A stretch of DNA of 64,000 bases from Antedon mediterranea (taxonomy: Eukaryota; Echinodermata; Crinoidea; Comatulida; Antedonidae), in the NCBI RefSeq assembly GCF_964355755.1, contig NC_092676.1, positions 22,240,288 through 22,304,287 on the forward strand, in the 5' to 3' direction. Shown here in pieces: positions 27,349 to 54,000 of this stretch (within the stretch, counting starts at the first letter, position 1; each line of letters starts with the position of its first letter). The notes under the pieces were generated by a model. It was not told where the DNA came from. It searched no databases and worked only from the letters and a program-made list of their open reading frames with translations. A program made the position numbers and the translations under genes.

Positions 27349-30300
27349 ATGAAGAAATTAGTGAGCGTGAAGGGAATCTGTAAAATGCTCTTCTTTGCAC
27401 TGGTTTTGTATACAGCTTATGTATGAAACTACTGTATTATTATTATTTTACTTATTTTTTAGACAAAATATGTTATCCAGATTTAGCGTAATTTATAACA
27501 CAATGACATCAGGCCTATCAACTGTTAGGCATAATATCTAGATCTTCCAGATCTATAATACTGAGATCTGAGTTTTCTTTACACCCCGTACTATAGGTTC
27601 TATTGTAGGCATTGAACTGTAATTTCAAAATGGATACCGTAGTATATATAATACTTATTATTATTTACATTTCAGATTATGGCATTACGTTATGTTGTTC
27701 AACCTCCAGTAACGTTTGCAATGATTCCAAGTTGTAGGCCTAAAAGTTACGAACTGGTAGGCATATGAAAGTTTAGTTACCATATGACTCAGCGCAAGGA
27801 AGGATACAGCGCAATCACAAGCCATCACTTGTTGCGTAGCGTTTTAGTGGGAACCTAGCTTTAGCTCTTATCATTACGTTGCAACGCGTTGGTCTGAAGA
27901 TTTTGATATTTCTCGAAAATAGAAAAAAGATTTAATTTTTCATATTTTTTCAGGGACAATAGGCTTACATATTTTTTAAGCAACATCTTGTTTTGGTAGG
28001 ATATAGACAGATGCCCTTTTCACTCGAGCTCTGTGAATTCAGTTACGGTGAGCTATTATATGGGAGCTTCAAAGTGTTCAAACTAAGCAGTGAAAATGGA
28101 TCATCTGCTTTTTTTTTTTTTTTTATCTTAGGATATTTTATGGATTATTTTTATGTATAAAGCGCTTAGAAACATTGTATTAGGCGCGCTATCAATCAAT
28201 CAATTTCTTTTATTTCAGAAATTTCATCCATATCAACAAACTTAGGCCTACAAACAGAAAAAGAAAATTGGCAAACTATAAGCTTAAATATACTTCTGTA
28301 TCTACAATACATTTTTTAGTTATGGAGCAAATGTTTGCAAACACCAAGCAACAAGAATATTACAACTAAAAAGACTACCATTTCTATTACTATTAGTAGT
28401 ACAGTATTACTATTATTAGTAATAATATTATTAGGCCTATTCTTGTTATTATTATTATTATTGTTGTTATTATTGTTTTAATATAGGTTCTTGCAACAAC
28501 AAATTACCGCGTTGAAAATGAAAAACAGATTACCAAGGTATGTTGCTATTTATTTTTCTAAACTAAACATGACCTCGCTCTTCAAATACAACTATGAATA
28601 CATTTTATAATCCTTTTTTTTTATCAATAAACAAGAAATATAGTATTTTTGCGATATCTGCAGCAGACCTACTACTGTTGTGTTCTAATTTATGTGTAAC
28701 ACTGAATTTTTAGTTGATATATTTATTTTTTGTGACCCTTAACATTAGAGCCTAAATGCGTTCAATTAAGTGTGACATTTGTCTAAACCTAAAAATAAAA
28801 ACAAAATACAGTTAACATTTTCTAAAATAATAGAATAATAAATGAGAAAATGGGTATTAATATTTATTTTGATTTCCAATAATAAAATAAATATAATGTA
28901 TAATCATCTTTATTTCAAGCAAATAGTATACAACATCAATAACAGATAATAATATAAATATCAAAAGGTAAAATAATAATTTTGTTGAAGATTGATTTAA
29001 ATTAAGAAAGATTACAGTTTAAAATAACCAGCGAATTATTTTTTCAAGTTAATTTTATTCAAACAAAGCAACACAATGCGGTATAGTGTTTTGTCGTTGT
29101 TTCTGGATTCTAATTTCTCCAGGAAAAATGAAATTTAAAATAATGTTAAAAAGAGGAAACAACGAAAAACACCAACATTAACACGAGAAAGTTGTAGCAA
29201 TCGCTTCTAATTATCGAATTACCCGGACAGGCTACTATTTTACAGAAAACCCATAGGCCTAAAGCTTTTGGAATTACAAATTCGTCAAACACAAGGTATT
29301 ATGTTAAGCATTCTGGTCAATCTGTCAACGCCGGTAGCTACTTCAGTGTGATTATTGAAGCTAGAGCCATCAACAACAGTCATTCCCGAAAAGGAGGAGA
29401 TTTTTGGTATGCAACTATAAGAAATAAGGTTGTAAATGTAGCAGGCAAGATAACTGATTTTGATAACGGTACTTATGAGGCTAAGTTTTTTGCTGCACAG
29501 CCAGGTGAATATGATGTTGAAATTACATTGGTACATCCGTCTAAAACCACTGATTTTATTGAAAATGTACTTTGGCCGATGGAAGACAGAGTCGTATGGA
29601 ATGGTAATTTCACATCGAACGACAATAAAACACACGAAATAAAAAGGTGTAAACTGAAAGTGCATGCTGACTACAATAATACATGTGTTTATAGTTTTCC
29701 ACTGGCGTTGGGAACAACCGAACTTGTATGTGATAAACCGAACGAGAAAATGTTTACGTGTGATTCATTGACGTCACTCAAGTCCAAGAATACCTACATT
29801 GAAAGACATTTTTCTTATTTATTTTCTGACAATTCTGCCCTCTTTCAAAAGTAAGTTCGTTCATTTGTTGATTTACCATAAACAAAACCCCCATTGACAA
29901 ATACAGTCATTAAGCCTACAAATGCAATAACATAATGCGAATACATAGAGATGAAAATGAGTAGCTTTATAACAAATCTATAGATGATATCTGGATATGT
30001 GTATTATATTTTTTGAATAGTAGAATGACATGTTAGCACAAGACTACAATTGAAGTACTGTTTCTTCTCCATGAAAACAACACACAAAACAAAACCAATA
30101 TCCGTAAATCTTTTAATGGTAACCCTGGGTTATTATTCTTTGCCTTTTTTATGTTGGGTTACTATTAGAAGAGGGGTTAGTATTAGAGTAGTGGGTTACT
30201 ATTACTAATCTTAAATGAGGCACCTGAAAATAGTAACCCACCCCCAACTGTTCCGGTCAGCAACTAATAGCGAAATAATAAACAAGTTTGGTTAAACTCT

Positions 30301-32270
30301 AACTTCATTTTATAAACTAAAAAATACTCAATCCTCCCCCACTCCGAGATCAACATGCCTTATCTCCTTATTTTCAAAATACGGCTGTCATAAACGACCA
30401 GTCTTCATAATGGAAATATTTTGTGACTCTAACAGTAGCTCCCATGGGTTAGAGTGTGAGTTACTATTAGAAGATTTACGGTAATTGCTATTTTATTTAA
30501 GTTTTACCATTAATTATAAAAAATAATACCTGCTTTTAATGTTTTGGCTTAGGCTATAATGTTTGTAATAAAGTGATTTTATGTAAACATTGTCTCTCTG
30601 TAGGTCTGTAACGTACGTTAGGATTTTGAATGGTCCTCTAAAAATAAACATCACAGGTAAATGTTGCACTTTTTTGTTTACTCAAATCACACTGGGCTAT
30701 TATTGAGATGGCATGTCAACGTTTTAGACCGTTACATGTTATACAAATACCGAATGTTTATGATGAGTGCAATGGTACAAGTAATTTCATTTGGTGAAAG
30801 ATGAAAGGTTATATTTTCATGAGGCAAAGCTCAGTTCAGTTCAAAAAAATGTATTCATTCAATAATGGCATATTATTGTACAGCCGAGTAAAAATATATC
30901 AGGTAAGCCTAATCTTTTTCGTGTTCATTTTTCAGCCAATGACTTTTTTATTTAAAGATGTATTGTCCTCTGAAAAAATAGTTCTTAACATTTTTTTTGT
31001 CATTTTAATTTCACATAATAGTTATCCACTTTGACCAAAAATTGGATCATAAAAAAATTATTTACCTGCAAAACTGTAATTTAAAGCAAAAAAATAGTCA
31101 AATTGGCTGCCAGACAATGTCTTTTTGATTGAATTTAACCATTTATTATGTTATTTTATAAGTGAAAACATAATTTTTTCGTTTTTTTCTCTACGGAAGT
31201 GATTACCTTTATTAAAACTATATATCACATTTGAACTTTGTATTTTGTTATCAATATTCTAAGTGTAGGCCTATAGGCCTAATATAATTATGCAAAATAG
31301 GTGAAAACATGTATGTAAATAAAATCATGTGTAATACTATATTATTTGATTCGCGCCTATTTTCAGCCTGTTTTCCACTATGCAAATTTTAGCGTCAGCT
31401 TACACGCATGCGTATTCATATTTCCATCTCCCAAATCCCTCTCTACGCATGTGTATAAGCTGACGCTTTAGATTCGCTAGAATAACTTTTTGTTTTCCAG
31501 AAACTTCTGAAAACACAGTGTATCACTTACCAGAATGCAAAGCAGATCTACCAGCTACAATTAGTGATGGTTTTTGGATGAAAAATTCTTGGACGTCTCT
31601 ACGGTGTAAGTCAAAGCAGTGGTCAAGGGTGGAAATAAGAAAATGCGTAAAGGGAAAACAACTTTACTTCTTTGGAGACTCCACAACAAGGCAATGGAAT
31701 GGTGGCTTACTTGATCTTCTAGGTCTTCGCAAAAGCAACATGACAAAATATCCTAACGCTAAGAAAACATACCATTCAAGTGATGTTGTTAATCTGACAT
31801 TTCATTTCCATCCATTCACACTAGGAGTAACTAATAGTCCATATCGCATTGGTAGATGGGAATATGAGATCATGGACAACCTGGACACTAGGATTTGTAA
31901 TTATATTATTATGATCAGTCCATGGGCCCATTATACACAGTGGGTAAAAGAACGGTATATAGAGAGACTTTACCTCTTGCGTCAAACAATTCTGAGATTA
32001 CGAAAGCGTTGTCCTAATACAGTTTTTGTTATCAAAACGCCGAAACCCCGGAATCACGATACAGGAACTTCTCTCCTTTATGCCGGTGATAAGTTGATTT
32101 ACGATATTCGAAGTTTCTTTCTTGATGTATTTAAAAATATTGGTATTCATATTATTGATGTATGGGATATGAATTTGGCGCACCCATCTAAATCAACAAT
32201 CCATATGCCGATAAGAATTATTTATCAAGAGTTATATCTATTTCTTTCCCATGTTTGCAAAGTAGAATAG
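27349..32270 (+). CDS. NXPE family protein (neurexophilin/PC-esterase), 7 exons
   Basis: Exons: 27349-27420, 27676-27756, 28000-28047, 28487-28537, 29246-29850, 30604-30656, 31501-32270. All are GT-AG with continuous phase, giving 559 aa, the usual NXPE length. Three tiny in-phase exons (81, 48, 51 nt) are inferred from splice signals and from the total length. Residues 11-24 are hydrophobic ('MLFFALVLYTAY'), fitting a signal anchor for the secretory pathway. The neurexophilin-like domain (about 105-230) shows 'GGDFWYATIRN', 'DFDNGTYEAKF' and 'VEITLVHPS'. The C-terminal PC-esterase domain begins 'YHLPECKADLP', has the nucleophile GDS at 362-364 ('YFFGDSTTRQW'), and ends with 'DVWDMN' plus a downstream His supplying the D/H pair. 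Mammalian NXPE1 is linked to sialic-acid O-acetylation; I cannot tell the substrate here. Introns carry several MITEs. Confidence 0.92.
27781..27866 (+). mobile_element. fragment of 'ttcccactag' MITE
   Basis: It contains 'caatcacaagccatcacttg' and ends 'tagtgggaacctagcttta', matching the MITE at 34979-35164. Lies in NXPE intron 2. Confidence 0.6.
30102..30481. mobile_element. MITE with CCGTAAATCTT ends
   Basis: Left end CCGTAAATCTTTTAATGGTA and right end the complement of CCGTAAATCTTCTAATAGTA (two mismatches over 20). Further symmetric 'gggttactatta' words occur inside. Flanking TA on both sides is compatible with a TA target. Lies in NXPE intron 5. Confidence 0.75.
30952..31140 (+). mobile_element. 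one end of a TTAA-type MITE
   Basis: TTAAAGATGTATTGTCC here is the same end as at 32520, but with no clear partner end downstream. A decayed copy in NXPE intron 6. Confidence 0.55.
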
Positions 32271-33743: not shown

Positions 33744-33826
33744 GCGCGACATCTCATTAACCAATTCTTTATTGACTCCCACCGTACGTTACAGTGTTGT
33801 CATAGAAAACAAATAACAAATAATTC
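33744..33826 (-). repeat. LINE-like 3' tail, right copy of inverted pair
   Basis: Reverse complement of 33266-33342 at high identity. It abuts the truncated first unit of the tRNA array, so its insertion may define the array edge. 33343-33743 between the copies holds no gene. Confidence 0.6.
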
Positions 33827-33859
33827 GTTGTCAGACCTTATCCATTGGGCCTCAGGACC
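33824..33859 (-). pseudogene. truncated tRNA-Arg at array edge
   Basis: Only the 5' half of the tRNA (acceptor strand to anticodon) remains. The rest is replaced by the LINE-like tail. Confidence 0.85.
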
Positions 33860-33967
33860 ACTCAATACATACTTCTTGCTGGTGCCCGAATCTTAATCCA
33901 CTAGCGTTGAACATGAGGAGTGCAATGTTAAATGGTTCTCGAAAAAATATTGTAAACAAAAAAAGCA

Positions 33968-34040
33968 CGATCCTGCTAGGACTCGAACCTGGAATCCCCT
34001 GATTCGTAGTCAGATGCCTTATCCATTGGGCCACAGGACC
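33968..34040 (-). tRNA. tRNA-Arg(ACG) unit 1
   Basis: One change from consensus, in the T-stem 3' strand. Confidence 0.85.
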
Positions 34041-34150
34041 ACCCAATACATACTTTTTGCTGGTGAACGAATCTTAACCCACTAGCGTTGAACGTGGAAA
34101 GTGCAATGTTAAATGGTTCTCGCGGAAAAAAATGTAAAGGAAATGGCATC

Positions 34151-34223
34151 CGATCCTGCCAGGACTCGAACCTGGAATCCCCTGATTCGTAGTCAGATGC
34201 CTTATCCATTGGGCCACAGGACC
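34151..34223 (-). tRNA. tRNA-Arg(ACG) unit 2
   Basis: Identical to consensus, though its downstream T-run is missing ('ggaaatggcatc' in the spacer), so termination may differ. Confidence 0.92.
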
Positions 34224-34334
34224 ACCCAATACATATTTGTTGCTGGTTAACGAATCTTAACCCATTGGCGTTGAACGTGAGGAGTGTAATGTTAATTGGT
34301 TCTCGCGGTAATATTGTAAACCAAATAAAAAACA

Positions 34335-34408
34335 CAATCCTGCCAGGACTCGAACCTAGAATCCCCTGCTTCGTAGTCATATGCTTTATCCAATTGGTCT
34401 ATAGGACC
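34335..34408 (-). pseudogene. tRNA-Arg-like unit 3
   Basis: 74 bases, with changes in the acceptor, D arm and anticodon stem. Probably not functional. Confidence 0.8.
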
Positions 34409-34512
34409 ACCCAATACATACGTATTGCTGGTAAACGAATCTTAACCCGTTGAACGTAAGGAGTACAATCTTAAATGGTTCTAGCGGAAATAATTGTTAA
34501 CAAAAAAAAGCA

Positions 34513-34584
34513 CGATCCTGCTAGGAATCGAACCTGGTATCCCTGACTCGTAGTAAGATGCCTTATCCATTGGGCCACAGGACC
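34513..34584 (-). pseudogene. tRNA-Arg-like unit 4
   Basis: 72 bases, with a deletion next to the anticodon stem and several substitutions. Confidence 0.75.
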
Positions 34585-34693
34585 ATCCAATACGTACTTC
34601 TTGCTGGTGAACGAATCTTAACCCACTAGCGTTGAACGTAAGGAGTTCAATGTTAAATGGTTCTCGCAAAGATATTGTAAAGAAAAAAAAGCA

Positions 34694-34766
34694 CGATCCT
34701 GCCAGGACTCGAACCTGGAATTCCCTGATTCGTAGTCAGATGCCTTATCCATTGGTCCACAGGACC
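34694..34766 (-). tRNA. tRNA-Arg(ACG) unit 5
   Basis: Two substitutions, one in the D stem and one in the variable region. Confidence 0.75.
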
Positions 34767-34877
34767 ACCTAATACATACTTCTTGATGGTGAACGTATCT
34801 TAACCCACTAGGGTTGAACATGAGGAGTGCAATGTTAATTGGTTCTCGTGGTAATATTGTAAACCAAAAAAAAAGCA

Positions 34878-34951
34878 CAATCCTGCCAGGACTCGAAACT
34901 GGAATCCCTCCTAATCGTAATCAGATGCTTTATCCATTGGGCTATAGGACC
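34878..34951 (-). pseudogene. tRNA-Arg-like unit 6
   Basis: Degenerate acceptor, altered T loop and a 1-base insertion. Confidence 0.8.
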
Positions 34952-34978
34952 ACCCAATACATTGCTGGTAAATTAATC

Positions 34979-35164
34979 TAAAGCTTGGTTCCCACTAGAA
35001 CGTAACGCAAGGACGTAAACGCAACGCAAGCGTTTTAACCAATGACAAGCGAAGTTATAGACAGTTACCAATCACAAGCGAATAAGCCATCGCTTGTGAT
35101 TGGTCAATTTACTTGCGTTGCGTTACGTCCTTGTGTTACGTCGCTAGTGGGAACCACGCTTTAA
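34979..35164. mobile_element. MITE inserted in a tRNA-array spacer
   Basis: Inverted ends TAAAGCTTGGTTCCCACTAG and its near-complement bracket 186 bases, with internal 'acgtaacgcaagg' symmetry. The insertion falls where normal spacers read 'aatcttaaccc', so the target is probably TTAA with one base since lost on the left. A fragment of the family lies at 27781-27866. Confidence 0.8.
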
Positions 35165-35235
35165 CCTGTTGGCGTTGAACGTAAGGAGTACAATGTTAAA
35201 GGGTTCTCGCAAAAATATTGTAAACAAAAGAAGCA

Positions 35236-35308
35236 CGATCCTGCCAGGACTCGAACCTGGAATCCACTGATTCGTAGTCAGATGCTTTATCCATCGGGCC
35301 ACAGGACC
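35236..35308 (-). tRNA. tRNA-Arg(ACG) unit 7
   Basis: Three substitutions (variable region, D arm). Confidence 0.7.
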
Positions 35309-35416
35309 ACTCAATACATACTTCTTGCTGATGCCCGAATCTTAACCCAGTAGCGTTGAACGTAAGGAGTACAATTTTAAATTGTTCTCGCAAAAATATT
35401 GTAGACAAAAAAAGAA

Positions 35417-35489
35417 CGATCCTGCCAGGACTCGAACCTGGAATCCTCTGATTCGTAGTCAGATGCCTTATCCATTGGGCCACAGGACC
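35417..35489 (-). tRNA. tRNA-Arg(ACG) unit 8
   Basis: One substitution, in the variable loop next to the anticodon stem. Confidence 0.88.
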
Positions 35490-35600
35490 ACCCAATGCAT
35501 ACTTCTGGTGGCTGGTGCCCGAATCTTAACCCATTAGCGTTGAACGTGAGGTGTACAAGGTTAAAGGGTTCTCGCAAAAATATTGGAAACAAAAAAAGCA

Positions 35601-35673
35601 CGATCCTGCCAGGGCTCGAACCTAGAATCCCCTGATTCGTAGTCAGATGCCTTATCCATTGGGTAACAGGACC
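35601..35673 (-). tRNA. tRNA-Arg(ACG) unit 9
   Basis: Four substitutions, including a D-stem pair change; same allele as unit 10. Confidence 0.65.
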
Positions 35674-35780
35674 ACCCAATACATACTTCTTGCTGGTGCC
35701 CGAATCTTAACCCAGTAGCGTTGAACTTAAGGAGTACAATGTTAAAGGGTTCTCGCAAAAATATTGTAAACAAAAAAGCA

Positions 35781-35853
35781 CGATCCTGCCAGGGCTCGAA
35801 CCTAGAATCCCCTGATTCGTAGTCAGATGCCTTATCCATTGGGTAACAGGACC
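35781..35853 (-). tRNA. tRNA-Arg(ACG) unit 10
   Basis: Same tRNA sequence as unit 9: a recent unit duplication. Confidence 0.65.
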
Positions 35854-35960
35854 ACCCAATACATACTTCTTGCTGGTGCCCGAATCTTAAGCCACTAGCG
35901 TTGAACTTAAGGAGTACAATGTTAAAGGGTTCTCGCAAAAATATTGTAAACAAAAAAGCA

Positions 35961-36033
35961 CGATCCTGCCAGGGCTCGAACCTGGAATCCCCTAATTCGT
36001 AGTTAGATGCATTATCCATTGGACCACAGGACC
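35961..36033 (-). tRNA. tRNA-Arg(ACG) unit 11
   Basis: Five substitutions spread over the anticodon and D arms. Confidence 0.6.
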
Positions 36034-36141
36034 ACCCAATACATACATCTTGCTGGTGAACGAATCTTAACCCATTGGCATTGAACGTGAGGAGTACAAT
36101 GTTAAAGGGTTCTCGTTAAAATAGTGTAAACAAAAAAAGCA

Positions 36142-36214
36142 CGATCCTGCCAGGACTCGAACCTGGAATCCCCTGATTCGTAGTCAGATGCCTTATCCAT
36201 TGGGCCACAGGACC
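36142..36214 (-). tRNA. tRNA-Arg(ACG) unit 12
   Basis: Identical to consensus; T7 terminator. Confidence 0.95.
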
Positions 36215-36321
36215 ACCCAATACATACTGCTTGCTGGTGCCCGAATCTTAACCCACTAGCGTTGAACGTAAGGAGTACAATGTTAAATGGTTCTCGCAAA
36301 AATATTGTAAACAAAAAAGCA

Positions 36322-36394
36322 CGATCCTGCCAGGACTCGAACCTGGAATCCTCTAATTCGTAATCAGATGCTTTATTCATTGGGCCATAGGACC
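36322..36394 (-). tRNA. tRNA-Arg(ACG) unit 13
   Basis: About six substitutions. The anticodon is kept but stems are weakened. Confidence 0.5.
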
Positions 36395-36502
36395 ACTCAA
36401 TACATACTTCTTGCTGATGCCCGAATCTTAACCCAGTAGCGTTGAACGTAAGGAGTACAATTTTAAATTGTTCTCGCAAAAATATTGTAGACAAAAAAAG
36501 AA

Positions 36503-36575
36503 CGATCCTGCCAGGACTCGAACCTGGAATCCCCTGATTCGTAGTCAGATGCCTTATCCATTGGGCCACAGGACC
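36503..36575 (-). tRNA. tRNA-Arg(ACG) unit 14
   Basis: Identical to consensus. Confidence 0.95.
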
Positions 36576-36682
36576 ACTCAATACATACTTCTTGCTGATG
36601 CCCGAATCTTAACCCAGTAGCGTTGAACGTAAGGAGTACAATGTTAAATGGTTCTCGCAAAAATGTTGTAAACAAAAAAGCA

Positions 36683-36754
36683 CGATCCTGCCAGGCTCGA
36701 ACCTGGAATCCCCTGATTCGTAGTCAGATGCTTTATCCTTTGGGCCACAGGACC
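36683..36754 (-). pseudogene. tRNA-Arg-like unit 15
   Basis: One base missing in the T loop/stem junction and two D-arm changes. Confidence 0.6.
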
Positions 36755-36863
36755 ACCCAATACATACTTCTTGCTGGTGAACGAATCTTAACCCATTGGC
36801 ATTGAACGTGAGGAGTGTAATGTTAAATGGTTCTCGCGGAAATATTGTAAAGAAAAAAAGACA

Positions 36864-36936
36864 CGATCCTACCAGGACTCGAACCAGGAATCCCTTGATT
36901 CGTAGTCAGATGCCTTATCCATTGGGCCACAGGACC
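36864..36936 (-). tRNA. tRNA-Arg(ACG) unit 16
   Basis: Three substitutions, including one T-stem mismatch. Confidence 0.6.
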
Positions 36937-37046
36937 ACTCAATACATACCTATTGCTGGTGAACGAATCTTAACCCACTAGCGTTGAACGTGGGGAGTGC
37001 AATGTTAAATGGTTCTCGCGGAAATATTGTAAACAAAAAAAAAGAA

Positions 37047-37122
37047 CGATCCTGCCAGGACTGGAACCTGGAGTCATCCACTGATTCGTAGTCAGATGCC
37101 TTTTTTATTGGGACACAGGACC
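37047..37122 (-). pseudogene. tRNA-Arg-like unit 17
   Basis: 76 bases: insertions in the variable region, altered T loop and a T-run in the D arm. Confidence 0.8.
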
Positions 37123-37235
37123 ACCCAATACATACGTCTTGCAGCTGGTGAACGAATCTTAACCCATTGGCGTTGAACGTGAGGAGTGTAGTCTTAATTG
37201 GTTCTCGCGGTAATATTGTAAACCAAAAATAAGCA

Positions 37236-37307
37236 CGATCCTGCCAGGACTCGAACCTGTTATCCCCTGATCGTAATCAGATGCTTTATTCATTGGGCCA
37301 TAAGACC
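37236..37307 (-). pseudogene. tRNA-Arg-like unit 18
   Basis: 72 bases: one base lost beside the anticodon, and acceptor mismatches. Confidence 0.7.
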
Positions 37308-37418
37308 ACCACTCAATACATACTTCTTGCTGGTGTCCGAATCTTAACCCACTAGCGTTGAACGTAAGGAGTACAATGTTAAATTGTTCTCGCAAAAATA
37401 TTATAAACAAAAAAAGCA

Positions 37419-37490
37419 CGATCCTGCCAGGACTCGAACCTGTTATCCCCTGATCGTAATCAGATGCTTTATTCATTGGGCCATAAGACC
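37419..37490 (-). pseudogene. tRNA-Arg-like unit 19
   Basis: Same defects as unit 18; the 183-bp unit has been duplicated. Confidence 0.7.
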
Positions 37491-37601
37491 ACCACTCAAT
37501 ACATACTTCTTGCTGGTGTCCGAATCTTAACCCACTAGCGTTGAACGTAAGGAGTACAATGTTAAATTGTTCTCGCAAAAATATTATAAACAAAAAAAGC
37601 A

Positions 37602-37674
37602 CGATCCTGCCAGGACTCGAACCTGGAATCTCCTGATTCGTAGTCAGATGCCTTATCCATTGGGCCACAGGACC
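37602..37674 (-). tRNA. tRNA-Arg(ACG) unit 20
   Basis: One substitution, in the variable loop. Confidence 0.88.
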
Positions 37675-37782
37675 ACCCAATACATACCTCTTGCTGGTGC
37701 CCGAATCTTAACCCACTAGCGTTGAACGTAAGGAGTACAATTTTAAATGGTTCTACCGAAAATATTGTAAACAAAAAAAGCA

Positions 37783-37855
37783 CGATCCTCCCAGGACTCG
37801 AACCTGGAATCCCCTGATTCGTAGTCAGATGCCTTATCCATTGGGCCACAGGACC
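37783..37855 (-). tRNA. tRNA-Arg(ACG) unit 21
   Basis: One acceptor-stem change, shared with units 28, 35 and 40. Confidence 0.75.
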
Positions 37856-37963
37856 ACCTAAACCATACTACTTGATGGTGAACGTATCTTAACCCACTAG
37901 CGTTGAACGTAAGGAGTACAATGTTAAATTGTTCTCGCAAAAATATTGTAAACAAAAAAAGCA

Positions 37964-38036
37964 CGATCCTGCCAGGACTCGAACCTGGAATCCCCTGATT
38001 CGTAGTCAGATGCCTTATCCATTGGGCCACAGGACC
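37964..38036 (-). tRNA. tRNA-Arg(ACG) unit 22
   Basis: Identical to consensus; first unit of the higher-order block. Confidence 0.95.
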
Positions 38037-38143
38037 ACCCAATACATACTTCTTGCTGGAGCCCGAATCTTAAGCCACTAGCGTTGAACGTAAGGAGTAC
38101 AATGTTAAAGGGTTCTCGCAAAAATATTGTAAACCAAAAAGCA

Positions 38144-38216
38144 CGATCCTGCCAGAACTCGAACCTGGAATTCCCTAATTCGTAGTCAGATGCCTTATCC
38201 ATTGGACCACAGGACC
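38144..38216 (-). tRNA. tRNA-Arg(ACG) unit 23
   Basis: Four substitutions; relatives are units 30 and 42. Confidence 0.65.
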
Positions 38217-38324
38217 ACCCAATACATACTTCTTGCTGGTGAACGAATCTTAACCCATTGGCATTGAACGTGAGGAGTACAATGTTAAAGGGTTCTCGCA
38301 AAAATATTGTAAACAAAAAAAGCA

Positions 38325-38397
38325 CGATCCTGCCAGGACTCGAACCTGGAATCCCCTGATTCGTAGTCAGATGCCTTATCCATTGGGCCACAGGACC
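38325..38397 (-). tRNA. tRNA-Arg(ACG) unit 24
   Basis: Identical to consensus. Confidence 0.95.
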
Positions 38398-38504
38398 ACC
38401 CAATACATACTCCTTGCTGGTGCCCGAATCTTAACCCACTAGCGTTGAACGTAAGGAGTACAATGTTAAATGGTTCTCGCAAAAATATTGTAAACAAAAA
38501 AGCA

Positions 38505-38577
38505 CGATCCTGCCAGGACTCGAACTTGGAATCCCCTAATTCGTAAACAGATGCTTTATTCATTGGGCCATAGGACC
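38505..38577 (-). tRNA. tRNA-Arg(ACG)-like unit 25
   Basis: About seven substitutions, several in stems; shared with unit 32. Possibly a pseudogene. Confidence 0.5.
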
Positions 38578-38685
38578 ACTCAATACATACTTCTTGCTGA
38601 TGCCCGAATCTTAACCCAGTAGCGTTGAACGTAAAGAGTACAATGTTAAATTGTTCTCGCAAAAATATTGTAAACAAAAAAAGAA

Positions 38686-38758
38686 CGATCCTGCCAGGAC
38701 TCGAACCTGGAATCCCCTGATTCGTAGTCAGATGCCTTATCCATTGGGCCACAGGACC
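38686..38758 (-). tRNA. tRNA-Arg(ACG) unit 26
   Basis: Identical to consensus. Confidence 0.95.
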
Positions 38759-38866
38759 ACCCAATGCATACTTTTGCTGGTGCCCGAATCTTAACCCACT
38801 AGCGTTGAACGGAAGGAGTACAATGTTAAATTGTTCTCGCAAAAGTATTGTAAACAAAAAAAAGCA

Positions 38867-38939
38867 CGATCCTGCCAGGACTCGAACCTGGAATCCCCTG
38901 ATTCGTAGTCAGATGCCTTATCCATTGGGCCACAGGACC
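38867..38939 (-). tRNA. tRNA-Arg(ACG) unit 27
   Basis: Identical to consensus. Confidence 0.95.
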
Positions 38940-39047
38940 ACCCAATACATACCTCTTGCTGGTGCCCGAATTTTAACCCACTAGCGTTGAACGTAAGGAG
39001 TACAATTTTAAATGGTTCTACCGAAAATATTGTAAACAAAAAAAGCA

Positions 39048-39120
39048 CGATCCTCCCAGGACTCGAACCTGGAATCCCCTGATTCGTAGTCAGATGCCTT
39101 ATCCATTGGGCCACAGGACC
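39048..39120 (-). tRNA. tRNA-Arg(ACG) unit 28
   Basis: Single acceptor-stem change, as in unit 21. Confidence 0.75.
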
Positions 39121-39229
39121 ACCTAATACATACTTCTTGCTGGTGCCCGAATCTTAACCCAGTAGCGTTGAACGTGAGGAGTACAATGTTAAAGGGTTCT
39201 CGCAAAAATATTGTAAACAAAAAAAAGCA

Positions 39230-39302
39230 CGATCCTTCCAGGGCTCGAACCTGGAATCCCCTGATTCGTAGTCAGATGCCTTATCCATTGGGCCACAGGA
39301 CC
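39230..39302 (-). tRNA. tRNA-Arg(ACG) unit 29
   Basis: Two substitutions (acceptor, T arm). Confidence 0.7.
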
Positions 39303-39409
39303 ACCCAATACATACTTCTTGCTGGAGCCCGAATCTTAAGCCACTAGCGTTGAACGTAAGGAGTACAAAGTTAAAGGGTTCTCGCAAAAATATTGTAAAC
39401 AAAAAAGCA

Positions 39410-39482
39410 CGATCCTGCCAGAACTCGAACCTGGAATCCCCTAATTCGTAGTCAGATGCCTTATCCATTGGACCACAGGACC
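39410..39482 (-). tRNA. tRNA-Arg(ACG) unit 30
   Basis: Three substitutions, identical to unit 42. Confidence 0.68.
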
Positions 39483-39590
39483 ACCCAATACATACTTCTT
39501 GCTGGTGAACGAATCTTAACCCATTGGCATTGAACGTCAGGAGTACAATGTTAAAGGGTTCTCGCAAAAATATTGTAAACAAAAAAAGCA

Positions 39591-39663
39591 CGATCCTGCC
39601 AGGACTCGAACCTGGAATCCCCTGATTCGTAGTCAGATACCTTATCCATTGGGCCACAGGACC
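39591..39663 (-). tRNA. tRNA-Arg(ACG) unit 31
   Basis: One D-stem substitution. Confidence 0.82.
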
Positions 39664-39770
39664 ACCCAATACATACTTCTTGCTGGTGCCCGAATCTTAA
39701 CCCACTAGCGTTGAACGTAAGGAGTACAATGTTAAATGGTTCTCGCAAAAATATTGTAAACAAAAAAGCA

Positions 39771-39843
39771 CGATCCTGCCAGGACTCGAACTTGGAATCC
39801 CCTAATTCGTAAACAGATGCTTTATTCATTGGGCCATAGGACC
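39771..39843 (-). tRNA. tRNA-Arg(ACG)-like unit 32
   Basis: Same altered sequence as unit 25. Confidence 0.5.
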
Positions 39844-39951
39844 ACTCAATACATACTTCTTGCTGATGCCCGAATCTTAACCCAGTAGCGTTGAACGTAA
39901 GGAGTACAATGTTAAATTGTTCTCGCAAAAATATTGTAAACAAAAAAAGAA

Positions 39952-40024
39952 CGATCCTGCCAGGACTCGAACCTGGAATCCCCTGATTCGTAGTCAGATG
40001 CCTTATCCATTGGGCCACAGGACC
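39952..40024 (-). tRNA. tRNA-Arg(ACG) unit 33
   Basis: Identical to consensus. Confidence 0.95.
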
Positions 40025-40132
40025 ACCCAATGCATACTTTTGCTGGTGCCCGAATCTTAACCCACTAGCGTTGAACGGAAGGAGTACAATGTTAAATTGT
40101 TCTCGCAAAAATATTGTAAACAAAAAAAAGCA

Positions 40133-40205
40133 CGATCCTGCCAGGACTCGAACCTGGAACCCCCTGATTCGTAGTCAGATGCCTTATCCATTGGGCCACA
40201 GGACC
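40133..40205 (-). tRNA. tRNA-Arg(ACG) unit 34
   Basis: One variable-region substitution. Confidence 0.88.
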
Positions 40206-40313
40206 ACCCAATACATACCTCTTGCTGGTGCCCGAATTTTAACCCACTAGCGTTGAACGTAAGGAGTACAATTTTAAATGGTTCTACCGAAAATATTGTA
40301 AACAAAAAAAGCA

Positions 40314-40386
40314 CGATCCTCCCAGGACTCGAACCTGGAATACCCTGATTCGTAGTCAGATGCCTTATCCATTGGGCCACAGGACC
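40314..40386 (-). tRNA. tRNA-Arg(ACG) unit 35
   Basis: Two substitutions, one being the acceptor change of unit 21. Confidence 0.72.
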
Positions 40387-40495
40387 ACCTAATACATACT
40401 TCTTGCTGGTGCCCGAATCTTAACCCAGTAGCGTTGAACGTGAGGAGTACAATGTTAAAGGGTTCTCGCAAAAATATTGTAAACAAAAAAAAGCA

Positions 40496-40568
40496 CGATC
40501 CTTCCAGGGCTCAAACCTGGAATCCCCTGATTCGTAGTCGGATGCCTTATCCATTGGGTCACAGGATC
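40496..40568 (-). pseudogene. tRNA-Arg-like unit 36
   Basis: Six substitutions, including loss of the invariant C of the TTC loop (B-box damaged). Confidence 0.65.
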
Positions 40569-40676
40569 ACCCAATACATACTTCTTGCTGGTGCCCAAAT
40601 CTTAACCCACTAGCGTTGAACGTAAGGAGTACAGTGTTAAATGGTTCTCGCAAAAATATTGTAAACAAAAAAAGCA

Positions 40677-40749
40677 CGATCCTGCCAGGACTCGAACCTG
40701 GAATCCCCTGATTCGTAGTCAGATGCCTTATCCATTGGGCCAAAGGACC
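40677..40749 (-). tRNA. tRNA-Arg(ACG) unit 37
   Basis: One substitution near the acceptor/D-arm junction. Confidence 0.85.
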
Positions 40750-40857
40750 ACACAATACATACTACTTGCTGGTGAACGAATCTTAACCCACTAGCGTTGA
40801 ACGTAAGGAGTACAATGTTAAAGGGTTCTCGCAAAAATATTGTAAACAAAAAAAGCA

Positions 40858-40930
40858 CGATCCTGCCAGGACTCGAACCTGGAATCCCCTGATTCGTAGT
40901 CAGATGCTTTATCCTTTGGCCCACAGGACC
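40858..40930 (-). tRNA. tRNA-Arg(ACG) unit 38
   Basis: Three D-arm substitutions. Confidence 0.65.
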
Positions 40931-41039
40931 ACCCAATACATACTTCTTGCTGTTGAACGAATCTTAACCCATTGCCATTGAACGTGAGGAGGGTAATGTT
41001 AAATGGTTCTCGCGGAAATATTGTAAAGAAAAAAAAACA

Positions 41040-41112
41040 CGATCCTGCCAGTACTCGAACCAGGAATCCCCTGATTCGAAGTCAGATGCCTTATCCATTG
41101 GGCCACAGGACC
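41040..41112 (-). tRNA. tRNA-Arg-like unit 39 with anticodon TCG
   Basis: The loop reads CTTCGAA, so the anticodon is TCG instead of ACG (still arginine). Two T-stem mismatches make function doubtful. Confidence 0.55.
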
Positions 41113-41221
41113 ACCCAATACATACCTCTTGCTGGTGCCCGAATCTTAACCCACTAGCGTTGAACGTAAGGAGTACAATTTTAAATGGTTCTACCGAAAA
41201 ATATTGTAAACAAAAAAAGCA

Positions 41222-41294
41222 CGATCCTCCCAGGGCTCGAACCTGGAATCCCCTTATTCGTAGTCAGATGCCTTATCCATTGGTCCATAGGACC
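41222..41294 (-). tRNA. tRNA-Arg(ACG) unit 40
   Basis: Five substitutions in the acceptor, anticodon and D arms. Confidence 0.55.
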
Positions 41295-41403
41295 ACCTAA
41301 TACATACTACTTGATGGTGAACGTATCTTAACCCACTAGCGCTGAACGTAAGGAGTACAATGTTAAATTGTTCTCACAAAAATATTGTAAACAAAAAAAA
41401 GCA

Positions 41404-41476
41404 CGATCCTGCCAGGACTGGAACCTGGAATCCCCTGATTCGTAGTCAGATGCCTTATCCATTGGGCCACAGGACC
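41404..41476 (-). tRNA. tRNA-Arg(ACG) unit 41
   Basis: One change, in the T loop (purine 57 replaced), affecting the B-box. Confidence 0.7.
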
Positions 41477-41583
41477 ACCCAATACATACTTCTTGCTGGT
41501 GCCCGAATCTTAAGCGACTAGCGTTGAACGTAAGGAGTACAATGTTAAAGGGTTCTCGCAAAAATATTGTAAACAAAAAAGCA

Positions 41584-41656
41584 CGATCCTGCCAGAACTC
41601 GAACCTGGAATCCCCTAATTCGTAGTCAGATGCCTTATCCATTGGACCACAGGACC
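41584..41656 (-). tRNA. tRNA-Arg(ACG) unit 42
   Basis: Same tRNA as unit 30. Confidence 0.68.
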
Positions 41657-41764
41657 ACCCAATACATACTTCTTGCTGGTGAACGAATCTTAACCCATTG
41701 GCATTGAACGTGAGGAGTACAATGTTAAAGGGTTCTCGCAAAAATATTGTAAACAAAAAAAGCA

Positions 41765-41837
41765 CGATCCTGCCAGGACTCGAACCTGGAATCCCCTGAT
41801 TCGTAGTCAGATGCCTTATCCATTGGGCCACAGGACC
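41765..41837 (-). tRNA. tRNA-Arg(ACG) unit 43
   Basis: Identical to consensus. Confidence 0.95.
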
Positions 41838-41944
41838 ACCCAATACATACTTCTTGCTGGTGCCCGAATCTTAACCCACTAGCGTTGAACGTAAGGAGTA
41901 CAATGTTAAATGGTTCTCGCAAAAATATTGTAAACAAAAAAGCA

Positions 41945-42017
41945 CGATCCTGCCAGGGCTCTAACTTGGAATCCCCTAATTCGTAATCAGATGCTTTATT
42001 CATTGGGCCATAGGACC
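41945..42017 (-). pseudogene. tRNA-Arg-like unit 44
   Basis: About eight substitutions, including the T loop. Confidence 0.65.
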
Positions 42018-42133
42018 ACTCAATACATACTTCTTGCTGATGCCCGAATCTTAACCCAGTAGTCTTAATCTGTTGGCGTTAAACATGAGGAGTGTAATGG
42101 TTCTCGTGGAAATAATGTAAATAAAAGAAAGCA

Positions 42134-42171
42134 CGATGTGTAGGGCTCGAACCTGGGATCCCCTGATCATG
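42134..42171 (-). pseudogene. truncated tRNA-Arg at right array edge
   Basis: Only the 3' half (T arm to anticodon stem) remains, with a damaged acceptor strand. Confidence 0.75.
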
Positions 42172-48900: not shown

Positions 48901-50012
48901 CATCACATCACAAAAAACATGTGATTTTAAATATTGATCATTTTGATGCAATGTGTACGCATTGTGGGGACAAATGTAGTGTTAGCTTTAATACAACAGC
49001 ATACATACACTATTTTTTTGTGTCTTATATAATTTTCAAGTTGTATTAAATACATACATGGACTTAGATGTTACACTTTTCAACTACATGATTCTCCCCT
49101 ATAAGGCTCATGTCAGTGCAGCCAACTACCGTGCTCTCCCCTCTGTCCACGACAGTGGCTGTGTGTACTAGTACAGCGGGGTAACCCCCTACTTGTCTCA
49201 ACGGATGTACTATGTCTTTTAAGGTGCACACAAGCATTTTTTGTATCCTGAGCCTATGGTTTATAGTCCTTTATTGTCCAAGAAGATTAGTTCTACCACC
49301 AGAACCATGAAGGTGGTGGTTATTATCGTAATAAATATATGGACAACTACATTTACACAATCATCCCCTCCCATTTACACAATCATCACCTCCCATTTAC
49401 ACAATCATCCCCTCCCATTTACACAATCATCACCTCCCATTTACACAATCATCACCTCCCATTTACACAATCATCACCTCCCATTTACACAATCATCCCC
49501 TCCCATTTACACAATCATCCCCTCCCATTTACACAATCATCCCTTCCCATTTACACAATCATCCCCTCCCATTTACACAATCATCCCCTCCCATTTACAC
49601 AATCATCCCCTCCCATTTACACAATCATCCCCTCCCATTTACACAATCATCCCCTCCCATTTACACAATCATCCCCTCCCATTTACACAATCATCCCCTC
49701 CCATTTACACAATCATCCCCTCCCATTTCCTCTGGATAGCTGCTCTTAATTGATTATATTTGTTATTTGTCCGAGAACATAGGCTGATAAGATAGGGGTC
49801 AAATTTAAATCTGATTTTTTTTTTTAATTTCAATTACCTTTCCTTTTATAGATGACCAATCAAAGAAAAGAAAAAGCAAGTGGGATGTTGGGGCAACAGG
49901 GGTTGCTGTTGCAGTGCCAAGGCTAGCATTCCCCGCAACAAGTTCAGTTAATACTAATAAGACTGTTATTTCATCTATTGGGACATTAAAGAAACCACGC
50001 TTAGACAATTGA
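42981..50012 (+). CDS. SAP30BP: SAP30-binding protein (HCNGP family), 7 exons
   Basis: Exons: 42981-43101, 45445-45617, 46085-46189, 46787-46866, 47748-47860, 48713-48853, 49852-50012. Phases are continuous, giving 297 aa (human is about 308). Five introns are GT-AG; intron 3 starts GCAAGT (GC-AG). SAP30BP is a nuclear protein first described as a SAP30-linked transcriptional repressor, later tied to RNPS1 and splicing of short introns. The acidic Ser/Asp/Glu-rich N-terminus (residues 1-100) holds 'LVSYAGDSDADSDEE'. The conserved HCNGP core (about 110-200) holds 'LPPEPTGRCSKHLQDKI', 'IQNRKDFRNPSIYEKLI' and 'GIDELGSNYPDDVYDPHGW'. 'KVEFVTGT' and a basic 'KKRKSKWD' follow. The first ATG of exon 1 is used; a second Met at residue 5 is possible. 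Confidence 0.97.
43811..44719 (-). pseudogene. retrotransposon gag fragment, antisense in SAP30BP intron 1
   Basis: Two adjoining minus-strand frames (44719-44363 and 44326-43811) belong to one gag separated by a frame break near 44345. The first has a capsid-like helical region; the second carries two CCHC zinc knuckles, 'CRNCDRSHEPRKC' and 'CRNCGKMNHWKVFC', followed by a basic tail. No protease, reverse transcriptase, integrase or LTR was seen on either side, so this is an isolated LTR-retrotransposon remnant. Confidence 0.8.
45256..45419. mobile_element. hAT-type MITE with perfect 8-bp target duplication
   Basis: ACTGTATA at 45248-45255 and again at 45420-45427 flanks a 164-bp element with inverted ends CAGTGGCTTAA / complement of CAGTGGCATAA. 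The right end lies 25 bases from the start of SAP30BP exon 2. The plus frame at 45245-45514 spans the element and is not a gene. Confidence 0.93.
46201..46295. mobile_element. miniature element (copy 2 of the 22136 family)
   Basis: Inverted ends GCTCTGTCTACACTATCAAA and its near complement around 'gtggtagtgatatgacatca'. It begins 12 bases after SAP30BP exon 3. Confidence 0.8.
46480..46745 (+). repeat. 50-bp minisatellite in SAP30BP intron 3
   Basis: About five units of 'gtgaaaggttatttgccact' followed by 'ccgtgacctttctaacaaga' and 'tcggaca'. Confidence 0.9.
46959..47081. mobile_element. 123-bp MITE
   Basis: Inverted ends TAAGCTACATTTACACTT and its complement (one mismatch). Lies in SAP30BP intron 4. 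Confidence 0.75.
47156..47546. mobile_element. TTAA-flanked MITE, 391 bp
   Basis: TTAA at both borders. Inverted ends AGGCCTATTTACACAAGGGC and near complement AGGTCTATTTACACTAGGGC. Lies in SAP30BP intron 4. Confidence 0.88.
48129..48404. mobile_element. hAT-like MITE with CAGGRCTCAAA ends
   Basis: Left CAGGACTCAAAACC and right complement of CAGGGCTCAAAGCT, with repeated 'gctagt' words inside. The target duplication is not clear. Lies in SAP30BP intron 5. Confidence 0.65.
49142..49265 (-). mobile_element. SINE body fragment, inverted
   Basis: Reverse complement of the 24505-24690 SINE body (chemically related words 'gtgcac...aaagacatagtacatcc' on the minus strand). Lies in SAP30BP intron 6. 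Confidence 0.75.
49351..49730 (+). repeat. 20-bp minisatellite, about 19 units
   Basis: The unit ACAATCATCCCCTCCCATTT is near-perfect, varying mainly C/A in 'atcMcctcc'. The two long plus frames over it are artefacts of the repeat. Confidence 0.97.
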
Positions 50013-51009: not shown

Positions 51010-54000
51010 CTAAGTTAATCTGAGTTTACATAATAACAATTCACGTTCTCTTTCAGAGCAATCTCTACACATAGCATTAATTATGTCAGCTGATAGATTA
51101 CAATTGTACATGCTAAGTACATTCAGCTTAGGAGACATAGTGAATAGAGAACGCAGTAAAGTACCATCAATGTCACTTAGATTATTATGACTAATATTAA
51201 GACGAGATAATCTCAGCTCTACTCCTCTGTCAGAACACTCTTTAATCACATCATTTATTATATCACCTGATAGATTGCAGTCATACATGTCAAGTCTATA
51301 CAGGTTGGGAGACATAATTAAATAACCTAAAGAAGTACCATCAATGTCACTCAGATTATTACTACTAATATTAAGATCAGATAATCTCAGCTCTACTCCT
51401 CTGTCAGAACACTCTTTAGTCATATCATTTATTATATCACCTGATAGATTGCAGTCATACAAGTTCAGTCCATACAGGTTGGGAGACATAATTAAATAAC
51501 CTAAAGAAGTACCATTAATGTCACTCAGATTATTACTACTAATATTAAGATAAGATAAACACCAAGGAAACTTTTTTATCATAGCATTCATTATATCACC
51601 TGATAGAGTACAGTCTTGCATTTCAAGTCTACGCACCGGGTTGAAACGACCTAAAGAAGTACCATTAATGCCACTTAGATTATTAAAACTAATATCAAGG
51701 CAAACTAATCCCCACTCACCTTCTGTATCGAAACACTTTATAATCATATCATTTATTATATCACCGGATATATCGCAGTCCTGCATGTTAAGATCATCCA
51801 GGTTGGAAGACATAATGAAAAAACCTAAAGAAGTACCATCAATGTCACTTAGATTATTCCAACTAATATTAAGGTTATCTAATCTCAACTCACCTTCTGA
51901 TTCAGAACACTTTATAATCATATCATTTATTATATCACCGGATATATTGCAGTCCTGCATGTTAAGATCATCCAGGTTGGAAGACCTAATAAAAGAACCT
52001 AAAGAAGTACCATCAATGTCACTTAGATTATTAATACTAATATTAAGGTTATCTAATGTCAACTTATATTTTGTATCAGAACACTTTATAATCATATCAT
52101 TCATTATTTTACCTGAAAGTTTGCAATTAGTCATTGTAAGAGATTCCAAATTAGGAGACATAGTCAATAAGGAACCTAGTAAAGGGCCATCAACATCACC
52201 AAGATCATTAAAAGTGAAGTGATCCATTAACAACTTGCCGCAATGCCGCCTATATTAGAACACTCTTTGATCATATCATTCAATACATCAACCTCTATAG
52301 AAGAAATTCCCCTGTATACAACTTTATTCCAATTTCCAATACATGCAAGGTGTGCAAGTGTTTTTCCTTTACAATCAGATGAAATTGTTGGAAGAAAACT
52401 GTATACATCTTTCCTAATACCAGTTTTACTAAGTTGACTTATACATTGTATAAAATGCTCATTAACTTTCTCACATGGTCTAGTATATTCAATATACATC
52501 TTTAATGAATTAGATATGTCATCCATGTGTTTTTCAAAATTTGTGGTGGTCATATGGTTAATTAAGGCTTTCTCCACGGTGTCTACATGGTCTTGTTTAA
52601 CGGAATGCCAGCAAAGACCCAATAATCGATATGTTGATATATCATTTGTAATCCAATGCTTTAAGAATTTACCAGCATCAGCACAAAGAAATCCAATTGC
52701 AAACTTTCTTGTCATTTCGAAATGCTCACTTTCTCGTATTACTTTCCATTCATTTTCATCCAGGGGCATAAGTAATTTATTTTCATTCATGCCTTCACTT
52801 TCACATAGTTTGTATAAATAAAATCCTACCAACGATTCCACTATCAACTTGTGAGGAGGCATATACATCTTTTCAAAACTAGATTTTGAAATTGGCATAT
52901 CTTCATAAACAAATCCAAGTTTCAGGGCTATGGGGTCAACTATATTCATTGAGTTAGCTGTTAAATCTGTTTCGGTAACTGAAAGTTGATTTTTATTTTT
53001 AGGTTATGATACATGCATTTACCTAACCAAATCATAGCGCTCACATATTGCATGGGAGTATCCTTAAATTTAGAAATAGGTTTGCCTTGTTGTTTTTCGA
53101 TGAACTGATTCAAAATACTTCGAAATATTTCTTTAAAAAGATCAGACTTATTACTAGGAATACTTTGTTTGTCTAGTCCCACATAATACAAATTGAGAGA
53201 AGTAACATAGGATTTTTACACAATGAACATACTTCAGGATGTTGCGAAACGGTAAGAGGAACTGTATCAATCGAAAGCTCTTCTCTCAGAGATAATCCCA
53301 GGTCACGGTTTCCACAATACTCAAAATATTTGCCAATGTACTTTCCAATGCTGTCTTTACCAAACCCTTTCACTCTTAAGTGTACATCACACGCGTTTAT
53401 AAATTCATCTATGTTTTCAGTTCGTGACGTAAGTATCACTACACTATTTGTTAATGTTTTATTTCTAAAAAGCCTAATTAAACTGTTGTTTTCAAATCTT
53501 AATTCATCTAGTCCATCTAACAGTAACACTATTTTATTATCATGGTTCACAATGTATTCTTTTATTAATGTTGGGTCTTGTGGAAGCTGTGTTTTATACC
53601 TAAACTCTTCCATATCGAGTTGCTTTACAATGAGATCTAGGATTCCGTCCCTGTTCTCCAAATCTCTTATACAGAGCATGAAAACAATTTTACCTTTAAA
53701 TACATCAAATGATTCATCTGTAGCAGCATTTAATGCCATGTGCCTCAATAAAGTCGTTTTACCTATACCGCCCTCACCATCTATAAGAACTTTACACCCA
53801 GGTATGTCTTTTATAATAGGTAATACTTCTCTTAATGTCGTTGGTTTACTATTTCTTTTCTGGTCATTTTCCTTGAGTAGATCCAACTCTGTGAATAGCT
53901 CAGAGAGGTCAAATTTGTATCTCTTATTCAATATTGCCGGTGTAAAGTTCTTGGCATTGCTGCACAAATCCTTCTTTCTCTCAAGTAGATATACTTCTAT

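Follow-up and report, generated by a model that had tools for sequence, protein, structure and literature searches.

Evenly spaced tRNA gene arrays for all 20 amino acids have been described in Hydractinia, where they were called unusual outside Entamoeba (PMC11067881), and tRNA clusters of fifty and more genes are known in Nematostella and in teleosts (PMC2888827). Here we describe a tandem array of tRNA-Arg(ACG) genes in a 64,000-nt stretch of the genome of the crinoid Antedon mediterranea (NC_092676.1, positions 22,240,288 to 22,304,287). This whole stretch is referred to as the window, and coordinates without a contig name (C1, C2, etc.) are window positions. Within the array, located on contig C7, some genes are preserved and others are decaying. 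With a probability of about 0.68, we consider it an array of genes for RNA polymerase III (Pol III), one of several tRNA isotypes amplified head to tail in this genome, with gene dose selected at the level of the array.

The array as a whole (33,823–42,133, minus strand) consists of 181-bp units, each made of a 73-bp tRNA-Arg gene and a spacer of ∼108 bp. A semi-global search with the consensus detected 44 full-length units, all on the minus strand and head to tail (33,968–42,017), as well as a truncated 45th unit at the low-coordinate end that retains only the 5′ half of the tRNA (∼33,821–33,859, minus strand). ARAGORN called 37 tRNA-Arg genes, also on the minus strand throughout (33,967–41,838), and 39 of the 44 units exceeded the curated cut-off of the Rfam tRNA model. 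Tandem Repeats Finder (TRF) reported a period of 181 bp with 45.5 copies over 33,823–42,062; its score of 12,258 excludes chance as the source of the tandem array. The last recognizable spacer stops near 42,133. Thus, the 44 tRNA-Arg(ACG) genes on one strand at ∼180-bp spacing that an earlier note on this DNA had placed at 33,824–42,171 were recovered in that region. Unit-to-unit spacing varies from 176 to 187 bp; the sole exception, a gap of 357 bp, is due to the insertion of a palindromic element (34,979–35,163, no strand assigned) resembling a miniature inverted-repeat transposable element, with 20-bp terminal inverted repeats (TAAAGCTTGGTTCCCACTAG).

The 73-nt consensus forms 20 out of 20 cloverleaf stem pairs and has anticodon ACG. 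Nine of the 44 units match it exactly, and 23 others carry one to five substitutions with no indel, in agreement with the earlier note (at least nine consensus units, most others one to five changes away). Eight of the nine perfect units fall within 36,142–41,837 (starting at 41,765, 39,952, 38,867, 38,686, 38,325, 37,964, 36,503 and 36,142), and the ninth is found outside this stretch, at 34,151–34,223 (all on the minus strand). Anticodon ACG is present in 43 units; the remaining one (41,040–41,112, minus strand) has TCG. A T-run terminator of at least four Ts is located just downstream of 43 units, the core B box GGTTCGA is kept in 37 and lost in seven, and the three bases after G73 are mostly TGC or TTC; CCA is not encoded. 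Fifteen of the 44 units are intact in the strict sense of having every stem pair, anticodon ACG, the core B box, a T-run of at least four and no indel; 26 pass a relaxed rule that tolerates a single broken pair and disregards the B box while still demanding ACG, a T-run and the absence of indels. Judged by sequence, the units appear to be eukaryotic nuclear-type tRNA-Arg(ACG) genes with A and B boxes and T-run terminators. The proposal that they are real tRNA genes rather than pseudo-tRNAs therefore stands, given the 39 units over the Rfam cut-off and the 26 that pass the relaxed rule. Still, tRNA gene counts read as dosage would be an overestimate here, because about two in five Arg units seem degraded.

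Repeats headed by a tRNA are common in animals, and this genome has other dispersed repeats bearing a B box, both of which would suit a short interspersed nuclear element (SINE) with a pseudo-tRNA as the source of the units. However, a search of the 354-Mb genome with the Arg-array spacer produced 45 matches, all at one place, the C7 array, and the tRNA-Arg query found only 66 candidate places genome-wide. The units have no poly-A or simple-repeat tail, and their order is regularly head to tail. Since the spacer is seen nowhere else, a SINE origin is excluded as far as the search tool detects, and we regard it as hardly credible. Dispersed tRNA-Arg genes do exist on C2 (3.73–3.79 Mb, on both strands); nine out of 10 have the same 73-mer, and their flanks are unrelated to the spacer of the C7 array. 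A spacer common to the array and these dispersed genes was considered and rejected, as none was found.

Two families of dispersed sequences were encountered in these searches. A repeat with the B-box-like motif GGTTCGAATCC(C/A)GCCAGAGACATTTT occurs at many places on C1, often as two or three copies ∼367 bp apart; a generic B-box pattern returned mainly dispersed repeats and was abandoned. The window also contains a 5S rRNA-like sequence (20,360–20,480, minus strand; Rfam score 64.7 bits) for which the genome holds 842 candidate places; among these, the best 40 have 96–97% identity and are dispersed over chromosomes. From its sequence it may be either a 5S-derived SINE or one of a set of dispersed 5S genes.

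Similarity within the Arg array shows peaks for units 7, 12 or 19 positions apart, and no difference separates unit 1 from unit 20 over their full length; therefore, blocks of units have been copied. At the same time, 43 of the 44 units are distinct (variants such as G44A, A46G and C25T tell them apart) and the mean difference between units is ∼12%. Concerted evolution, which the earlier note had proposed, is thus supported only as regards copying between units, in blocks of 7, 12 and 19; there has been no uniform homogenization, and many units decay unconstrained. Divergence from the consensus is 7.2% in the low-coordinate half of the array versus 4.1% in the other half, with units up to 18% off consensus at the most diverged end (33,968–35,308, minus strand), as expected for a position near an array edge. 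The assembler could in principle have locally mis-expanded the block copies, whose identity reaches 100%. Yet a collapsed or wrongly expanded repeat is very improbable for an array of just 8.2 kb that is composed almost wholly of distinct units and interrupted by a unique insertion, in a genome where independent arrays of other tRNAs are built alike.

Two observations characterize the forces acting on the units. First, 57 distinct substitutions were counted in the tRNA part, and they break 25 stem pairs versus 24.3 expected at random; pair breaking at the chance rate indicates that many units are free of structural constraint. Second, the nine perfect tRNAs sit on at least five spacer lineages, with spacers differing by up to 26 of 108 positions. 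They span 28% of the spacer tree, over which 27 tRNA changes are expected and none is seen. None of 2000 simulations matched this span; the perfect class was chosen after the data had been seen, which is partly offset by using the widest identical class in each simulated run. The absence of changes where 27 were expected, combined with pair breaking at chance level, shows that there are two classes of units, kept and decaying. The preservation of perfect copies is most simply explained by purifying selection. Two points weigh against this interpretation: short tracts of gene conversion with the C2 genes as donors could have kept these copies exact instead, and the ratio of tRNA to spacer variation in the Arg array is 0.62–0.87, i.e. 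the two parts vary nearly equally, as they would in a passive repeat.

The Arg array is not alone in this genome. We identified ∼229 units of tRNA-Lys(UUU) with a 176-bp period (C8, 23.635–23.675 Mb), at least 119 units of tRNA-Cys with a 137-bp period (C2, from 14.175 Mb onward), some 25 units of tRNA-Lys(CUU) with a 146-bp period (C3, 8.098 Mb), a Gly(GCC) array with a 138-bp period (C7, 9.93–9.96 Mb), initiator Met arrays with periods of ∼147–150 bp (C11, 15.18–15.20 Mb, and C1, 37.16 Mb) and tRNA-Glu genes repeated in ∼425-bp steps (C10, 14.30–14.37 Mb). The earlier suggestion that the Arg array is unusually long is not supported, in view of the far longer Lys(UUU) and Cys arrays; published arrays also comprise tens to hundreds of genes (PMC11067881, PMC2888827). 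About six tRNA-Asp genes stand in a row at 161 bp in addition to dispersed ones, and the Ala(AGC) query, a human-type sequence, gave only three matches, none seen in an array; genes of these two isotypes are mostly or wholly dispersed. In the searches for Gly, initiator Met, Asp, Ala and Glu genes, human-type tRNA sequences served purely as probes. Spacers are unlike between isotypes and measure ∼65–110 nt in the six array isotypes measured. A nucleosome-phased period was rejected because the periods (137, 138, 146, 147, 161, 176, 181 and ∼425 bp) differ between arrays.

The ratio of tRNA to spacer diversity is ∼0.3–0.45 in the initiator Met arrays, 0.55 in Lys(CUU), 0.7 in Arg and Gly, 0.9 in Lys(UUU) and 1.1 in Cys; these ratios are descriptive, and some arrays were sampled in part. 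In the initiator Met arrays the tRNA diversity is 0.02–0.04 versus 0.08–0.10 for the spacer, and in the Cys array 0.114 versus 0.101. Sequence diversity thus points to a constrained tRNA part in the former and to hardly any constraint in the latter. Several units have changed anticodons. In the Lys(CUU) array, three units have anticodon TTA, which would read the stop codon UAA (L048 1906, 4225 and 5752); they are probably decaying, as acceptor-stem changes are also present. In the initiator Met arrays, units with anticodon CAC, otherwise one change off consensus, have been copied several times (L055 2097 and 2832; L056 29 and 474).

Could the Arg array be a tRNA-derived satellite, i.e. a silent tandem repeat that grows and shrinks passively and supplies no tRNA, with the C2 genes doing all the work? 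The chance frequency of pair-breaking changes, the perfect state of nine out of 10 C2 genes and the similar rates of variation of tRNA and spacer, which the Cys and Lys(UUU) arrays share, are what such a satellite would exhibit, and a silenced tandem tRNA cluster is described in Arabidopsis (PMC12308677). On the other hand, a satellite does not account for nine unchanged units across at least five spacer lineages, for the T-run retained in 43 of 44 units or for the initiator Met array, a sister array under strong constraint. We therefore judge the satellite explanation unlikely, though one to be taken seriously. A further possibility is that a chromatin role (as a boundary, an insulator or a site of TFIIIC clustering) is primary and tRNA output secondary, with only the promoter boxes needed. 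The human tandem tRNA repeat at 1q23.3 has been proposed as a boundary element (PMC4041453), and many Arg units are under no pressure to keep their stem pairs. However, the core B box itself is lost in seven units; as a candidate regulatory element in the spacer, the best conserved 10-bp stretch was not significant (P ∼ 0.8); and the array is situated among ordinary genes and repeats on either side, with no visible domain border. A primarily chromatin-related function is accordingly quite improbable.

In the Pol III array reading that we favor, each unit has an internal promoter of its own, made up of A and B boxes, as well as a separate T-run terminator, and would thus be transcribed singly. 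With A34 edited to inosine, tRNA-Arg(ACG) reads codons CGU, CGC and CGA, and the same would hold for products of the array. Copy number would shift through duplication and loss of blocks of units; the block copies are observed, and unequal crossing-over is presumably their cause. Selection may then act on the number of working units and not on each unit: some lineages would be held at the functional sequence while redundant lineages mutate freely, giving the two classes of units, and the dispersed 73-bp genes on C2 would share the load. A broader idea, which is speculative and rather doubtful, is that tRNA dosage is set per array, that isotype arrays mix kept genes with freely mutating ones, some with changed anticodons (e.g. 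Lys-bodied genes with UUA and initiator-bodied genes with CAC), and that arrays serve as a nursery where decoding variants repeatedly arise, to be copied in blocks.

Other features of the window include an NXPE-family gene with neurexophilin-like and NXPE4_C domains (29,198–32,270, plus strand), a 22-bp minisatellite (49,350–49,728; 17 copies, 98% match by TRF) and a gene similar to NOD-like receptor genes, with a NACHT domain and leucine-rich repeats (51,010–54,111, minus strand, possibly extending to 56,087). A 177-bp repeat of leucine-rich-repeat type is located on C8 near 23.62 Mb. In the genome at large, 12 Hox genes form an ordered cluster on C2 (7.83–8.21 Mb), with the last two facing each other; homeodomains read by eye, without a tree, include Hox1–8, Hox9/10 and Hox11/13a–c. 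The feather star Anneissia japonica likewise has twelve Hox genes with convergent Hox11/13b and c, although there this pair is >360 kb away (PMC7351957). Taken by itself, the A. mediterranea cluster points to an ambulacrarian and probably to a crinoid. Homeobox matches are confined to contigs C1–C11, which suggests about 11 chromosomes; a search of the genome for COX1 found nothing.

We found no description of such arrays in echinoderms in the open-paper literature, and a literature search on transcription-associated mutagenesis at tRNA genes gave no paper. With the present data, tandem tRNA arrays that each serve one isotype are now described from an ambulacrarian deuterostome as well. In addition, the constraint on tRNA can be compared directly with that on spacer across numerous natural arrays whose spacers are very short; selection on a redundant gene pool thereby becomes measurable.

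Among described systems, the closest likeness is to Hydractinia, also an animal, whose evenly spaced arrays contain tens to hundreds of tRNA genes that are nearly identical, with separate arrays for many isotypes (PMC11067881). The Arg array is likewise head to tail, on one strand and of one isotype, with regular spacing and similar spacers, and separate arrays exist for Lys(UUU), Lys(CUU), Cys, Gly, initiator Met and Glu. Hydractinia, however, belongs to another phylum and has all 20 amino acids in arrays, whereas Ala was not seen in one here. The clusters of Nematostella and zebrafish are also very large, but neighbors there are mostly different isotypes, in contrast to the single isotype per array in A. 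mediterranea (PMC2888827). Entamoeba shares tandem units with tRNA genes and has most of its tRNA genes in arrays; it is a protist whose units combine as many as five different tRNA genes, with microsatellite-like spacers and arrays making up >10% of the genome (PMC2652664). The human 1q23.3 locus is similarly a tandem repeat containing tRNA genes, with variable copy number, but its units are 7.3 kb long and combine a CTCF site with several tRNA genes (PMC4041453), as opposed to the 181-bp single-gene units described here. The Arg array is thus a further case of the known single-isotype tandem tRNA arrays, in a new group and with unusually short single-gene units.
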